Of a stretch of 10,163 bases of DNA, positions 2,649-7,921 are shown one piece after another (within the stretch, counting starts at the first letter, position 1; each line of letters opens with the position of its first letter). The translations under genes were made by a program, and so were the position numbers. Source of the DNA: Dehalococcoidia bacterium (GTDB lineage Bacteria > Chloroflexota > Dehalococcoidia > GIF9 > AB-539-J10); assembly GCA_030605665.1 (NCBI GenBank), contig JAUWHW010000051.1, positions 1 to 10,163 on the forward strand. The letters run 5' to 3'. The notes below the pieces were generated by a model. It was not told where the DNA came from. It made no database searches and saw only the letters and a program-made list of their open reading frames with translations.

Positions 2649-4991
2649 ATGGCTAAAATAAAAACCTTGGCGCTAGCTCATATCAGTGTTTTTGGTGTTG
2701 TTCAGGGAGTCGGCTTCAGACCTTTTGTTTATGGGCTAGCCACCAAACACAACTTAAAGGGATGGGTATGCAATACCTCTGGGGATGTCAAAATTGAAAT
2801 AGAGGGGGAGGCAGAAGCTATTGAGCAGTTTAAGCTGGAGCTGCAAACAAAAGCCCCACCTCTAGCTCGCATTGAAAGTATAGCTATTAGCTATCATTCA
2901 CCCATTGGCTACAAAAGCTTTGAGATCCGTAGTAGCATTGCCGAAGAAGGAAAATACCAACTCATTTCCCCAGATATTGCCACTTGTCAAGCTTGTCTGA
3001 GCGAACTACTAGACCAAAATAATAGGCGCTATCGCTACCCCTTCACTAACTGCACCAACTGTGGCCCACGATTTACCATAATTGAAGATATGCCCTATGA
3101 CCGTCCCAAAACTACCATGCGCTATTTCCAAATGTGCCACCAATGCCAGGAGGAATATGATAATCCGCTGGATCGCCGCTTTCATGCTCAACCAAATGCC
3201 TGTCCAAAATGTGGTCCAAAAGTCGAACTAGTTAATGCCCAGGGTAAACCTGTAGCCAGTCCAGACCCTATAGCTACCGCCAGCCAGCTCTTGAAAAGAG
3301 GGAGTATCATCGCTATCAAAGGCCTGGGGGGATTTCTGCTCGCTTGCGATGCTACCAATAAAACGGTGGTCAAAACCTTGCGGGAAAGGAAAAGGCGATG
3401 GTTCAAGCCATTTGCCATAATGGTAACCAACATGGAAGAAGTTAAAAAACACTGCTATGTTTCCCCAAAGGAGGAGAAGCTGCTCACCTCACCTCAAAGC
3501 CCTATCGTGCTTATGAAATGGAGGGATGGCTCACCTGTATCTCCAGAGGTAGCTCCAAATTTAGCCTACTTGGGAATTATGCTGCCTTATACGCCATTGC
3601 ACCACATCTTGCTTAGAGATACTGGATTGCCTTTAGTGATGACCAGCGGCAACATCAGTGAAGAGCCTATTGCTAACGATAATGATGAAGCATTGAGGAG
3701 ACTAAAAGGAATTGCCGATTACTTCTTGATTCACAATCGGGATATTTATTCTCGTTATGATGATAGCGTGGCCATAGTGGAAAGAGGAACAAACCAGCTT
3801 GTCAGGCGAGCTCGCAGCTATGCCCCTTGCCCCATCATTTTGCCTTTTAAAGCCAAACAAGTGCTCGGCTGTGGTGCTGAGATAAAAAATACTTTTTGCC
3901 TAACCAGAGATAATTACGCTTTCTTAAGTCAACATATTGGTGATATGGAAAATATGGAAACCTTAGAACATTTTGGCAACACTATTTCCCTCTATAAAAG
4001 GTTGTTTCGAATTGAGCCTGAGATCGTCGCTTATGACCTTCACCCCGATTATCTTGCTACCAAGTATGCCCAAGAACTAAGCAAATCTGGCCCGAAACTT
4101 ATTCCTGTACAGCACCATCATGCTCATATTGCTAGCTGCATGGCAGACAATGGATTACAGTCCGCGGTAATCGGTGTCGCCTTTGATGGCACCGGAATGG
4201 GCAGCGATGGGCATATTTGGGGAGGAGAATTCCTAGTATCTGACTATAAAAGTTTTAACAGGGTAGGTCACCTAGAATACCTTCCTTTGCCTGGAGGAGA
4301 TGCAGCTATAAAAAGACCCTACCGCACTGCCATTGGCTATATTCTCAGCCTATTAGGAGAAGATGCTTTAAGGCGATTAGCCTTTATGGAACAAGTTAGC
4401 AAAGCTGAGGCAGAAGTTATAAAGCGCCAAATAGAAAGAGGGCTAAATTCGCCGCTGACTTCGAGCATGGGGCGCCTGTTTGACGCCGTATCAGCGCTGA
4501 TAGGCATAAGGGGCAAAATAGATTATGAAGGGCAAGCAGCTGTAGAGCTAGAAATGGCAGCTTACACCTGTCATTGCGAAGAGCGAGATTCCTCGCTTAC
4601 ACTCGGAACAAGCTCCGCAATCTCCAATGATAATGAAAGCTATCCCTACAGCATAACCACGGACAGGGGAATGAGGATTATTAAACTAAGGGAGCTGCTT
4701 CAAGCTATAGTAGAAGACTTAAAGCAAGGAGGCTCTAAAGCCAGAATATCAATCAGATTCCACAATACCATAGCTCAGATGACTAGCCAAGTGTGCCGGT
4801 TGATAACTAATGAAACTGGTATTAACCAGGTAGCTCTAAGTGGCGGCGTATTCCAGAATCGGCTGCTACTAAACAAAACAGCTAGCCTACTGGAAAAAGG
4901 CGGCCTCCAAGTATTTACCCACAAGCAAGTGCCTTGCAATGATGGCGGCATCTCTTTAGGGCAAGTAGTGGTCGCCAATTTTGCTAAATAA
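2649..4991 (+). CDS. hypF: Carbamoyltransferase HypF, hydrogenase maturation
   Basis: HypF uses carbamoyl phosphate and ATP to place a carbamoyl group on the C-terminal cysteine of HypE, the first step toward the cyanide ligands. Domains in order: an acylphosphatase-like domain (about residues 8-95; VQGVGFRP with R24, and N42); two zinc fingers (C113/C116/C135/C138 and C163/C166/C185/C188); a YrdC-like domain (about 200-390); and a Kae1-like domain (about 400-778) with the metal-binding stretch QHHHAH (H489-H493), FDGTGMGSDG and SGGVFQNR (from S731). At 780 residues it is full length. The odd part is residues 641-660, which read CHCEER...AISN. They are encoded by a repeat-like DNA segment sitting in a loop between YEGQAAVELEMAA and SYPYSI. 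The gene starts 3 nt after hydA with no good ribosome binding site, so it is probably translated by coupling. Confidence 0.96.
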   Translation: MAKIKTLALAHISVFGVVQGVGFRPFVYGLATKHNLKGWVCNTSGDVKIEIEGEAEAIEQFKLELQTKAPPLARIESIAISYHSPIGYKSFEIRSSIAEEGKYQLISPDIATCQACLSELLDQNNRRYRYPFTNCTNCGPRFTIIEDMPYDRPKTTMRYFQMCHQCQEEYDNPLDRRFHAQPNACPKCGPKVELVNAQGKPVASPDPIATASQLLKRGSIIAIKGLGGFLLACDATNKTVVKTLRERKRRWFKPFAIMVTNMEEVKKHCYVSPKEEKLLTSPQSPIVLMKWRDGSPVSPEVAPNLAYLGIMLPYTPLHHILLRDTGLPLVMTSGNISEEPIANDNDEALRRLKGIADYFLIHNRDIYSRYDDSVAIVERGTNQLVRRARSYAPCPIILPFKAKQVLGCGAEIKNTFCLTRDNYAFLSQHIGDMENMETLEHFGNTISLYKRLFRIEPEIVAYDLHPDYLATKYAQELSKSGPKLIPVQHHHAHIASCMADNGLQSAVIGVAFDGTGMGSDGHIWGGEFLVSDYKSFNRVGHLEYLPLPGGDAAIKRPYRTAIGYILSLLGEDALRRLAFMEQVSKAEAEVIKRQIERGLNSPLTSSMGRLFDAVSALIGIRGKIDYEGQAAVELEMAAYTCHCEERDSSLTLGTSSAISNDNESYPYSITTDRGMRIIKLRELLQAIVEDLKQGGSKARISIRFHNTIAQMTSQVCRLITNETGINQVALSGGVFQNRLLLNKTASLLEKGGLQVFTHKQVPCNDGGISLGQVVVANFAK
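4569..4626 (+). repeat. Palindromic repeat inserted in frame within hypF
   Basis: The segment opens with TGTCATTGCGA and closes with CGCAATCTC. It contains a 6-bp stem AGCGAG (4582-4587) / CTCGCT (4592-4597) around a 4-nt loop, and a wider pair GAGATT (4585-4590) / AATCTC (4619-4624). Its core matches, in opposite orientation, the repeat inside hypD. Its interior (CTCGCTTACACTC then ACAAGC) resembles the intergenic repeat at 5034-5070. It is read through without a stop as residues 641-660 of HypF. The exact ends are uncertain because no uninterrupted copy is available. Confidence 0.7.
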
Positions 4992-5198
4992 AACCTAACT
5001 GTTTCCCCGTGTCATTCTAAGGGAGCACTTCAGCTTCGCTCAGTGTAAACTCAGCAAGCGAAGAATCTTGGAGCCCCTTCGCGGAGCTTGTCCTGAGCGC
5101 CATGACATTCTTCACTTCGTTCAGAATGACAGGAAGCGAAGGGCTCAGGGTCACATAAGAGGTGGCTGAACACTTACGCAAGCTGCCCAGTATGTTTT
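4992..5198. other. Non-coding repeat-filled region between hypF and the MFS gene
   Basis: These 207 nt contain no plausible gene. They are mostly imperfect inverted repeats: CTTCGCT (5034-5040) with AGCGAAG (5057-5063); CCTGAGC (5092-5098) with GCTCAGG (5143-5149); and CATTCT (5106-5111) with AGAATG (5123-5128). No hairpin is followed by a T tract, so no intrinsic terminator can be called. No convincing -35/-10 pair is seen before the MFS gene. The region probably separates the hydrogenase-hypF unit from the MFS gene. Confidence 0.7.
5010..5131. repeat. Composite inverted-repeat element with TGTCATTCT ends
   Basis: A perfect 9-bp terminal inverted repeat, TGTCATTCT (5010-5018) and AGAATGACA (5123-5131), bounds 122 nt. 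Inside are a 7-bp stem (5034-5040 with 5057-5063) and, at the right end, a hairpin 5103-5131 pairing TG-CATTCT with AGAATG-CA around an A-A mismatch and an 11-nt loop. The internal AGCGAAGAATCT and CTTGTCCTGAGC are pieces I associate with dispersed intergenic repeats in several bacterial lineages. It looks like nested or decayed copies rather than one clean element, and it has no transposase. A non-autonomous miniature element is possible but unproven. Confidence 0.6.
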
Positions 5199-6440
5199 AT
5201 GAAAAAAGATAGCTTGTGGCATGATAAAACTCTCCTTGCCCTTTGTATGGCTGCGCTAGTGCTTATGATGGGGTTAGGATTTCTTAGCCCTATTTTGCCT
5301 AAGTTTGTCCAAGCGCTGGGCATTGCTCCGACACGAATAGGAACCATGGTAGGGCTAGTTATAACCGTCTTTGGCATAGCTCGAGCCGCTATGGACCTGC
5401 CCGCTGGCAGGCTAGCTCACCTCTGGGGGCGGAGACCTCTTCTCATCCTTGGTCCATCTCTGGTGACTATCAGTGCCATTGGTTGTGGCTTGGCTATGGA
5501 ATACTGGCAATTAGTGGTATTCCGCTTGCTCCAAGGGTTGGGCTCAGCCCTCTTCAGTGTAGCCGCCATAATTGTCATCGGCGAGATCAGCACCCCGGCT
5601 AACCGTGGACAATATATAAGCTTTTACTGGGGAGCTTTCCTTATTGGCTGCAGTCTTGGGCCGACATTAGGTGGATTCGTGGGGGAGTATTTAGGTTATC
5701 GAGCCCCTTTCTTTTGCTTCGCTGGACTCGCCTTACTAGCTACCCTGTGGTGCTACTTCCGCATCCCAGAAACTAAAGGAAGGCAACCGACTAGCATATT
5801 TGCCTCAAGCAATCTCCCAGTTAAGAACAGTTCAATAGAGAAACCGCCTCCCCTACATAAGAATTTAAACTTCATACTCATCTCCATGGTATCTTTATTT
5901 ACCTTAATTACCTTGAGCGGCAACCAGATAACTCTAATTCCCCTCCTTGGCTATGAACGCCTCAACCTAAGGGAGGGGCAAGTAGGCTTGGCCCTTACCC
6001 TGGTAGCCGCTATGCAATTTGCCTTTGTTTTTCTTGCCGGCAGGCTTTCGGATAAGCTGGGAAGGAAAACTATTATTGTGCCCGGGGGAATAATAACTGC
6101 CCTAGGGCTAGTTTTGTTCATCCATAGCCCTAGCTACCAGTTTTTCCTGCTCAGTGCTGTAGTGCTAGGGATGGGAAGGGGATTTGGTGGCGCTGTCCCT
6201 ACTGCCTATGTCGCTGACATCGCCCAATCACAAAATTACGAACATACTATGGCGCTATATCGCACGGTGAGCGATATCGGCTTTGTAGTAGGTCCCATTC
6301 TCTTAGGTTGGCTTAAAGATACTCGTGGGCTTGATTTTCCCTTCTTTCTGGGCGCTGGGTTTCTCCTTGGAGCAATAATCCTTTTCGCCGCATTAGCCAA
6401 AGAAACTACTGAGCACGGTAAAAATCAGGAAGTGCTATGA
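5199..6440 (+). CDS. MFS transporter, probable drug/H+ antiporter type
   Basis: This 413-residue integral membrane protein has about 12 hydrophobic segments split by a polar loop at about residues 190-224. The MFS motif A between helices 2 and 3 is clear (D66-LPAGRLAHLWGRR-79), with a matching repeat in the second half (AGRLSDKLGRK, about 280-290). R109 in RLLQGLGSAL fits motif B. The GPTLGG stretch (154-159) resembles the antiporter motif C of exporters, which points to proton-driven efflux. The substrate cannot be told. There is no His-rich tail as in nickel exporters of the NreB type. The start has only a weak ribosome binding site, and the ATG at 5192 is in another frame and soon stops. 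The gene splits hypF from hypCDE, so either it is carried along by chance or it serves the same pathway. Confidence 0.85.
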   Translation: MKKDSLWHDKTLLALCMAALVLMMGLGFLSPILPKFVQALGIAPTRIGTMVGLVITVFGIARAAMDLPAGRLAHLWGRRPLLILGPSLVTISAIGCGLAMEYWQLVVFRLLQGLGSALFSVAAIIVIGEISTPANRGQYISFYWGAFLIGCSLGPTLGGFVGEYLGYRAPFFCFAGLALLATLWCYFRIPETKGRQPTSIFASSNLPVKNSSIEKPPPLHKNLNFILISMVSLFTLITLSGNQITLIPLLGYERLNLREGQVGLALTLVAAMQFAFVFLAGRLSDKLGRKTIIVPGGIITALGLVLFIHSPSYQFFLLSAVVLGMGRGFGGAVPTAYVADIAQSQNYEHTMALYRTVSDIGFVVGPILLGWLKDTRGLDFPFFLGAGFLLGAIILFAALAKETTEHGKNQEVL

Positions 6441-6585: not shown

Positions 6586-6813
6586 ATGTGTTTAGCCATA
6601 CCAATGAGAATTGCCTCCATAGAAGGCGATGAAGCCGAAGCAGAGGTTGGTGGGGTAGTGCGTCGAGTTAGCATCGCACTTACCCCGGAAGCGAAGGTAG
6701 GTGAGTATGTGTTGCTTCACACTGGTTACGCCATAGGCGTGATAGATGAAGCCGAAGCCAAGGAAACCTTAAAGCTCCTAGAAGAGATAGCAAGCTTCAG
6801 TGAAATTTCTTGA
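6586..6813 (+). CDS. hypC: Hydrogenase maturation chaperone HypC
   Basis: HypC partners with HypD to hold the Fe(CN)2CO unit and delivers it to the large subunit. The 75-residue protein starts MCLAIPMRI and contains the conserved VGEYVLLHTGYAIG stretch with H45. In this family the initiator Met is removed and the exposed cysteine (C2) binds the iron unit. The start is therefore placed at 6586, even though the frame is open upstream through ATG 6574 and TTG 6547, which would bury the cysteine. No strong ribosome binding site is seen for any of these starts; AGGGA at 6556-6560 is too distant. The 3' end overlaps hypD by 14 nt, which implies tight coupling with its partner. Confidence 0.93.
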   Translation: MCLAIPMRIASIEGDEAEAEVGGVVRRVSIALTPEAKVGEYVLLHTGYAIGVIDEAEAKETLKLLEEIASFSEIS

Positions 6814-7921
6814 CGAGTACCAAAACAGTGAGCTGGCCACAAAACTAGCACACAGAATCGCTAACCACTCTACTAAGCCAATCAGGTTAATGGAATTCTG
6901 TGGCGGGCATACCCATGCCATAATGAGACATGGAATTCGCCAGCTAGTCCCCGAAACAGTCGAAATGAGAGCCGGCCCAGGTTGCCCGGTATGCGTTACA
7001 GCAACCACCGATTTGGATAAGGCTATTGCTTTGGCATGGTTGCCCAATGTTACCATCACTACCTTTGGGGATATGATGAGGGTGTCTGGTAGCTATTCCA
7101 GCTTACAGCAGACGAAGGCTGAGGGAGCGGATGTGAGAGTTGTCTATTCCACTATGGACGCCGTGGAAATAGCCAGAGAAAACCCCAAGAAATCAGTTAT
7201 CTTTATCGGAATTGGCTTTGAGACCACGGCACCAACTATAGCTGCCTCCATAATTAAGGCACAGCAAGGGGGGATAGAAAACTTCCACGTCTTTTCCTGT
7301 CTCAAGTTAACCCCACCGGTGATGAAGGCGCTTCTTGACTCGGGTGAGGTAAAGCTAGATGGCATTATTTGTCCTGGGCATGTCAGCGTTATAATCGGCT
7401 CTCGTCCTTATGAATTTATACCTGCGGATTATGGGGTTGCTTGTGTTATCTCAGGCTTTGAACCCATAGATATTTTATTATGTGTAGGTAAGTTAGTGGA
7501 GCAAATTGAAGCTGGCCAGCCGAAAGTAGAAATAGCCTATCGCCGTGGAGTAAAGCCTCAAGGCAATAGGAAAGCCTTAGAATTGATGGAGGAGGTTTTC
7601 CAAATTGATGGAGCTAACTGGCGAGGAATTGGCATCGTGCCACAAAGTGGCTTAAAAATTAACCAGAAATATGAGCATTTTGATGCCGCTAAAGTTTTTT
7701 CGGGATTGCTTCGCTGTGCTCGCAATGACAAGCCAGTGAGAGAACCTAAAGGTTGCCGCTGCGGAGATATACTTCGGGGGGTAGCCACACCGTTTGAATG
7801 CCACCTCTTCGGAAAGGTTTGCACCCCCGAGAAGCCTGTAGGTCCCTGTATGGTCTCTAGTGAAGGTGCTTGCGCTGCTTATTATCAATATGGGTCCCCT
7901 GAAAGTTCTGGGAAATTTTAA
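6800..7921 (+). CDS. hypD: Fe-S scaffold HypD, hydrogenase maturation
   Basis: HypD carries a [4Fe-4S] cluster and redox-active cysteines, and with HypC it assembles the iron with its CN and CO ligands. The GTG start at 6800 gives MKFLDEYQNSEL, typical of the family N-terminus, and overlaps hypC. Conserved motifs are CGGHTH (C34 onward), GPGCPVC (C62, C65) and FGDMMRV. The C-terminal cluster ligands C321, C334, C341 and C358 have the spacing seen in E. coli HypD, ending SSEGACAAYY. Length is 373. Two oddities: residues 301-311 (SGLLRCARNDK) are encoded by a repeat inserted just before the KGCRCG cluster region, and the usual proline after FGDMMRV is serine (S96). The C-terminal region with all four ligands stays in frame, so function is probably kept. 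Confidence 0.95.
   Translation: MKFLDEYQNSELATKLAHRIANHSTKPIRLMEFCGGHTHAIMRHGIRQLVPETVEMRAGPGCPVCVTATTDLDKAIALAWLPNVTITTFGDMMRVSGSYSSLQQTKAEGADVRVVYSTMDAVEIARENPKKSVIFIGIGFETTAPTIAASIIKAQQGGIENFHVFSCLKLTPPVMKALLDSGEVKLDGIICPGHVSVIIGSRPYEFIPADYGVACVISGFEPIDILLCVGKLVEQIEAGQPKVEIAYRRGVKPQGNRKALELMEEVFQIDGANWRGIGIVPQSGLKINQKYEHFDAAKVFSGLLRCARNDKPVREPKGCRCGDILRGVATPFECHLFGKVCTPEKPVGPCMVSSEGACAAYYQYGSPESSGKF
7702..7730 (-). repeat. Palindromic repeat inserted in frame within hypD
   Basis: Read on the - strand this segment begins TGTCATTGCGA, identical over 11 nt to the start of the hypF repeat, and ends GCAATCCC. A stem ATTGC (7705-7709) / GCAAT (7722-7726) encloses 12 nt. On the + strand it encodes GLLRCARND, a peptide familiar as the translation of dispersed intergenic repeats. 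It sits between FDAAKVF and PVREPKGCRCG of HypD. Its precise boundaries are inferred. Confidence 0.7.

Follow-up and report, generated by a model that had tools for sequence, protein, structure and literature searches.

Two in-frame copies of a palindromic repeat in hydrogenase maturation genes

Within the stretch of DNA analyzed here (10,163 nt, hereafter the window), part of a [NiFe]-hydrogenase operon comes first, and then hypF, an MFS transporter gene, a gene that we take, from a motif, to be hypC, and finally hypD, hypE, and acpS. Exact matches to the 11-nt core TGTCATTGCGA occur twice in the window, at 4569-4579 on the plus strand within hypF (2649-4991, plus strand) and at 7720-7730 on the minus strand within hypD (6800-7921, plus strand), where about 0.005 would be expected by arithmetic on both strands of 10 kb. 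When up to two mismatches were allowed, seven matches were found compared with a shuffle mean of 1.99, and seven were reached in 1 of 200 shuffles. The copy in hypD is 29 nt long (7702-7730, minus strand), and its plus strand is read as GLLRCARND (7703-7729), which forms codons 302-310 of HypD. The copy in hypF is a 57-nt composite of the same family (4569-4625, plus strand) that is translated as CHCEERDSSLTLGTSSAIS. The first-pass annotation had described one core shared by the two genes in opposite orientations, in frame in both, and had read GLLRCARND on the plus strand; both descriptions are confirmed by these matches and codons.

HypD is otherwise intact (TIGR00075 at 473.8 bits; cut-off 192.8), and a frameshift or pseudogene reading was ruled out for HypD and HypF, as both lie far above their profile cut-offs. 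A chance match of the core was ruled out by the window shuffles and by reversed controls in relatives, and a tandem array within the window was rejected. Between hypF and the MFS transporter gene sits a head-to-head pair of a sister repeat (TCTGA type; 5010-5131, unstranded), in which TGTCATTCT begins on the plus strand at 5010 and on the minus strand from 5131.

A dispersed repeat family

Whole-genome counts were taken from relatives, the closest found being a Dehalococcoidia MAG (G001, locus L001) whose hypD DNA outside the element is 98.2% identical to that of the window. The proposal that both copies stem from one repeat family was borne out by the genome scan, which recovered 51 exact copies of TGTCATTGCGA on both strands of G001, and 40, 67, and 135 in G002, G003, and G004, respectively, while the reversed control gave 0 in all four. 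At least two exact cores per genome were present in 14 of 14 relatives searched, and the core plus one more base was present in 44 of 52 genomes of the family of G001 (control total of 2). Among 40 further genomes reached via other HypD loci, 26 matched an 11-mer of the repeat at least once, comprising 15 with at most six matches (near control level) and 11 with at least 20; the richest were G069 and G073 (249 and 303 matches; loci titled WOR-3 and Nitrospiraceae). These copies were searched for with the tag, and untagged relatives of the repeat would therefore escape. The element at 7702-7730 is thus confirmed as a copy of a dispersed, multicopy palindromic repeat.

Element architecture and folding

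The common plan among the copies listed is TGTC-ATTGC-GA-inner stem-GAA-GCAAT-C, others being nested or composite, and the sister type has ATTCT/AGAAT. The inner stem retains pairing while its sequence varies: the variants GC/GC, GCC/GGC, GGCAC/GTGCC, GGGGC/GCCCC, and GTCGC/GCGAC are all paired, and the unpaired inner cells of a GGAGC type are G-A or A-G oppositions. For the inner stem anchored on the outer stem, the mean over 66 distinct arms was 1.89, versus 1.60 when 3' arms were re-dealt among copies of equal length (0/1,000). Covariation across 12 equal-length variants was 0.145 versus 0.095 when shuffled (1/500), and did not exceed 0.065 when slid. The outer stem is invariant in this set of 12 variants and so provides no evidence by itself.

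The sequence GCGAAGC, present in the simplest form of the element, makes an exceptionally stable mini-hairpin as DNA. With DNA parameters, simple units were no better at folding than their shuffles (z -0.25 to 0.28; GCGAAGC is not credited by the program), which we count as a point against the explanation preferred below. The hypF composite (z -1.70) and the intergenic pair at 5010-5131 (z -1.85) folded somewhat better than shuffles as DNA, and as RNA the pair also outfolded most of its shuffles (z -2.41). Positions -7 to -2 ahead of TGTC were pyrimidine-rich in G001 and G002 (76%-85% for intergenic copies and 59%-70% for those in genes), and this tract of about 6-7 positions may reflect a preferred target or belong to the element itself. 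Tails after AAT were mostly CTC or CCC among the copies listed (CCC in the hypD copy). Neighbors within 250 nt were arranged head-to-head in 9 cases, in tandem in 7, and otherwise in 2 for the GCGA type (111 copies); the corresponding numbers for the TCTGA type (91 copies) were 4, 21, and 1.

Filled and empty sites in the HypD linker

The HypD linker, defined as GLK to CxCG, was readable in 28 of 31 rows (the window and 30 family loci). Its length is exactly 33 residues in the 21 rows that do not have the element, and exactly 39 in the 7 that do (the window and six relatives). Hence, 21 of the 27 relatives read share an identical shorter linker with no element, and 6 are filled. The element-free homologues align with a six-residue gap rather than ungapped, in agreement with the earlier reading of the peptide as a true insertion. 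The element lies in one orientation (A) in the window, G001, G002, G003, G019, and G020, and on the other strand at the same place in the linker (orientation B) in G030, where it reads FPDLSLRAKRSNLEKEP. At the DNA level, the net gain is exactly 18 nt in all seven filled rows, and since the unit is 29 nt long, approximately 11 nt of target were seemingly replaced, irrespective of orientation. The hypD of G002 (L182) contains a run of N, with an apparent identity to the window of 86% overall and 96.0% outside the N.

Of 120 HypD protein homologues, 22 were labeled A, two B, two other, and 94 empty, although A labels were partly assigned by linker length alone and decayed rows (such as P0036, P0067, and P0086) may be something else. 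Two of the sequences (P0002 and P0003) are one residue longer than other A rows. An AlphaFold2 model of HypD (41 homologues) had a mean pLDDT of 61, with residues 308-373 below 50, and was uninformative about the loop.

Linkers of other core proteins

Linkers of four proteins were surveyed in 30 loci each using four 11-nt probes at no more than one mismatch (two-mismatch matches, close in number to chance, were disregarded). The element was found in the linker in 6 of 29 readable loci for HypD, 8 of 25 for HypF, 10 of 17 for CarA, and 16 of 28 for MiaB (1, 5, 13, and 2 of the 30 loci were unreadable, respectively). When HypF is aligned to PDB 3vth, the residues of its insert lie within a gap of 20 residues, and the frame of this insert varies, giving CHCEE in some genomes and VIA in others. 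A different repeat, encoding SSPLKGE-like peptides, was found in the CarA linker of five loci (L247, L250, L251, L253, and L254); in other species, this same linker carries the TGTCATTGCGA element. Across species, the linkers of HypD, HypF, CarA, and MiaB accordingly differ in the version, frame, or type of the repeat that they hold. Relatives thus carry the element at one position in both orientations, which makes particular loops of housekeeping proteins look like places where genomic repeats land repeatedly.

Annotators who meet GLLRxARND, VIASEAKQS, LSLRAKRSN, CHCEERSDEAIS, or similar peptides in a predicted protein should recognize them as repeat read-through, which can yield short spurious protein matches. 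For example, HypF residues from about 630 to 680 matched short stretches in several genomes, and one reading of these matches is that they represent the TGTCATTGCGA repeat.

Sibling genomes and the search for a mobilizing enzyme

We compared sibling genomes G001 and G015 for both core types. Out of 110 copies in G001, 40 were shared with G015, 43 had one flank matched, 17 had no hit, 6 were partial, and 4 corresponded to empty sites. In the reciprocal comparison (99 G015 copies), 48 were shared, 22 had one flank matched, 20 had no hit, 1 was too far, 6 were partial, and 2 were empty. Two of the six empty sites were clean; the other four, being longer gaps inside arrays, were left out. One clean site lies between genes (L118:3109-3137; 28 nt gained and 4 nt lost), and the second is inside a gene (L374:2415 versus L133; 28 nt gained and 10 nt lost) that matches dihydroorotate dehydrogenase electron-transfer models below their cut-offs. 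No target-site duplication was present at either of these two filled/empty sites. At a second place in the gene at L374:2415, the repeat is of the TCTGA type in G001 and of the GCGA type in G015. With 40 of 110 G001 copies shared, and only four scored as empty, of which one was clean, movement is slow, which we also count against the preferred explanation.

The gene at L374 2249-3118 in G015 contains three repeat-derived inserts (VIASEAKQS, a PSPSKGEGKGEGE stretch, and SLRAKRSNL), two of which differ from, or are missing in, G001. Relative to G015, G001 also has a 21-nt gain nested within an element (L116 12391-12447) and an expanded loop (L114 16088).

A match to PF01797 was absent in 9 of 14 and in 12 of 25 genomes, although these are drafts in which absence is no proof; repeat-rich genomes with no match included G003, G004, G008, G018, and G050. 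None of 40 Y1 transposase loci had exact TGTCATTGCGA cores on both sides, and a RAYT-driven REP was rejected on these two grounds; four loci had a core on one side (L322, L326, L331, and L338). That these searches turned up no mobilizing enzyme is a further point against the preferred explanation. The only Y1 (RAYT-like) gene of G001 (L129 about 4590-5230; C42) has GTAGTGGCGGGGTTTATCCCCGCC on both sides, a separate GTAG-type repeat next to what is likely its transposase.

One insertion or several

The filled linkers could descend from one old insertion per site, which was inherited and drifted, and was at times inverted at its site or removed through recombination with alleles that lack it. 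A gain of exactly 18 nt in seven of seven HypD rows of both orientations is what such a history would leave, and decaying copies in HypD and MiaB likewise hold their position and length. A HypD tree built without the linker requires at least 14 changes of insert state, but 55 of its 117 forks are unresolved, so that this count leans high and is compatible with a single origin. Moreover, the elements of G019 and G020 have drifted beyond their genes (21/27 identical positions, while gene identity is 92.3%).

Nonetheless, the opposite trend was found for G003. Its element is identical to that of G002 at 27 of 27 positions, whereas the genes are 77.2% identical and third positions 55.0% (P about 0.001), and it matches those of the window and G001 at 26 of 27 (P about 0.008), their genes being likewise about 77% and third positions about 55% identical; these 3 of the 15 pairs represent a single lineage contrast. 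Pairs of other genomes with G019 or G020 were unremarkable in element versus gene identity. Certain copies therefore appear recent or refreshed, and others are decaying. Transfer of a longer hypD tract between G001 and G003 was rejected, as flank identity was not raised (the G003 flanks are no closer to G001 than to G004). The reading of the HypF site in two frames, and the different repeat types that sibling genomes have at one coding place, also argue against a single old insertion, which we regard as unlikely.

Copies within and between genes

Gene calls were ORF-based, and in-gene copies are thus in frame by construction. Exact copies were inside genes in 20 of 51 cases in G001 (31 between genes) and 17 of 40 in G002 (3 overlapping and 20 between), and in a sample of 20 of the 135 copies in G004, 4 were inside, 1 was overlapping, and 15 were between genes. 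In the sequence fetched, chosen because it held copies, coding density was 0.87 in G001, 0.83 in G002, and 0.88 in G004, and per base, copies were rarer in genes by about 10-fold in G001 (binomial p 2e-15) and 6-fold in G002 (1e-8). The sister core TGTCATTCTGA was inside genes in 22 of 51 cases in G001, 5 of 31 in G002, and 2 of 9 in a sample from G004. Avoidance by the sister type of its stop-bearing frame in genes was dropped as a candidate observation, since it holds by construction. Five of the six frames of the hypD copy are open, compared to an average of 4.60 in dinucleotide shuffles, 54.6% of which (of 2,000) reach five. The first-pass suggestion of an element built for tolerance within coding sequence was not supported, given that the element is no more stop-free than shuffles and is depleted in genes.

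The 20 in-gene copies of G001 are distributed across 19 genes of many pathways, including proS, pheT, aroC, ispH, nadC, miaB, purC, tilS, carA, mfd, valS, ade, cobU, and lumazine synthase. Hence, the occurrence of copies in two partners of one pathway, HypD and HypF, looks incidental. Products of 18 of the 19 genes exceeded the curated cut-off of at least one family (HypD and HypF were scanned on the window copies), and the one below cut-offs resembles a damage-control phosphatase.

Eighteen of the 20 in-gene copies in G001 lie on the strand of the gene (10, 7, and 1 in the three frames), and the other two, on the opposite strand, share one frame. Across G001 and G002 combined, 34 of 37 copies in genes are on the gene strand; for copies lying between co-directional genes the figure is 19 of 28 (p 0.022; orthologues of the two genomes counted twice). 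This bias, for which the preferred explanation does not account, is a point against it, and would suit a hairpin that acts as RNA, for example, as a pause or mRNA-stability element of the hyp operon with the peptide as a by-product. However, the hypD copy has the less common orientation, its plus-strand RNA folds like shuffles (z 0.18), the element is absent from 21 of 27 relatives read, and a known RNA family was rejected, as no Rfam family reached its gathering score in the window; an RNA role is accordingly very improbable. It is also hard to credit that the peptide is useful to HypD and kept by selection (e.g., as an altered linker ahead of the cluster-binding cysteines), as might be suspected from a position and frame held in several lineages, when 94 of 120 homologues were labeled empty, the opposite orientation yields an unrelated peptide in the same place, and the same peptides occur in many unrelated proteins.

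Proposed origin of the HypD insert

The explanation that we prefer, and consider probable, takes 7702-7730 to be one copy of a dispersed, REP-like palindromic element, non-autonomous in its movement, whose insertion into the HypD linker kept the reading frame. The unit may be transferred as a hairpin of single-stranded DNA, with an enzyme of the host or of a transposon acting on it, and its insertion would replace a few target nucleotides. Insertions would strike genes and spacers alike, with selection purging those that break genes, such that survivors would be found in expendable loops, where they could later drift, nest, or be swapped. The GLLRCARND peptide would most likely have no function.

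A wider proposal is put forward more tentatively, and we rate its chances as somewhat below even. A REP-like hairpin may spread without a dedicated transposase, taking the place of a few target nucleotides, and return to the same few core-protein linkers across species in either orientation, the linkers constituting a shared, exchangeable stock of repeat-derived peptides. The hotspot alternative raised for the Rickettsia elements RPE-4/6/7 would then be the right one.

Comparison with known repeat systems

Rickettsia provides the best-known cases of repeats within coding DNA, and the available text of the relevant study did not settle whether sites held in common go back to one old insertion or are hotspots (PMC3767692). 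Here, that question becomes testable through the many relatives sequenced, the two orientations, and the presence or absence of copies in siblings. No description of the TGTCATTGCGA repeat was found in the literature searched among the matches listed (most subscription papers lie outside of it). None of the listed matches to the core letters concerned the TGTCATTGCGA repeat, as far as titles and the start of abstracts indicate, and a search with the peptides of the element found no paper. REP counts for Dehalococcoides mccartyi are reported by RepRanger, and the word "intragenic" is absent from the accessible part of that article (PMC12306157).

Short palindromic repeats in many copies are shared with REP/RAYT systems and REPINs, as outlined in the accessible parts of their descriptions (PMC2817692, PMC3116915), although here no tyrosine transposase has exact cores on both sides (40 loci). 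MITEs, according to the portion of the source available, are also small non-autonomous repeats able to fuse in frame with genes (PMC10969869), but the two clean sites here have no target-site duplication.

CGTC-tagged REPs, which were compared by the text description in the available part of the source rather than by consensus figures, are closer (PMC3733652). They have the tag CGTC, often TGTC, and TGTC or CGTC precedes the stem here; their stems start with A/T pairs, as in the ATT...AAT of the units aligned here; and they include intragenic copies and have no dedicated transposase. They differ, by the same partial description, in their uninterrupted stems of 8-9 bp with loops of 4-5, compared to a 5-bp outer stem, a GA/GAA interruption, and a variable inner stem in the element here, and in a mostly CCA tail, compared to mostly CTC or CCC (PMC3733652). 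Head-to-head dimers predominate among CGTC-tagged REPs; here, both head-to-head and tandem neighbors occur, in the numbers given above.

RPE-4/6/7, as described in the available text, likewise form in-frame inserts in housekeeping genes, including pheT, and different types occupy one site in different species (PMC3767692). They share with the TGTCATTGCGA element an ATGAC motif, the reverse complement of GTCAT. The inserts listed there are 68-192 bp long, whereas the copies in the window are about 29-57 nt, and the hosts belong to another phylum. The authors of that work, in the same text, left hotspot versus common origin open and leaned to common origin (PMC3767692). The behavior like that of Rickettsia palindromic elements suggested for the window at first pass is supported by the in-frame inserts in HypD, HypF, and other genes. 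The TGTCATTGCGA element thus resembles both CGTC-tagged REPs and RPE-4/6/7, and its most notable trait is the coding sites that look re-used.
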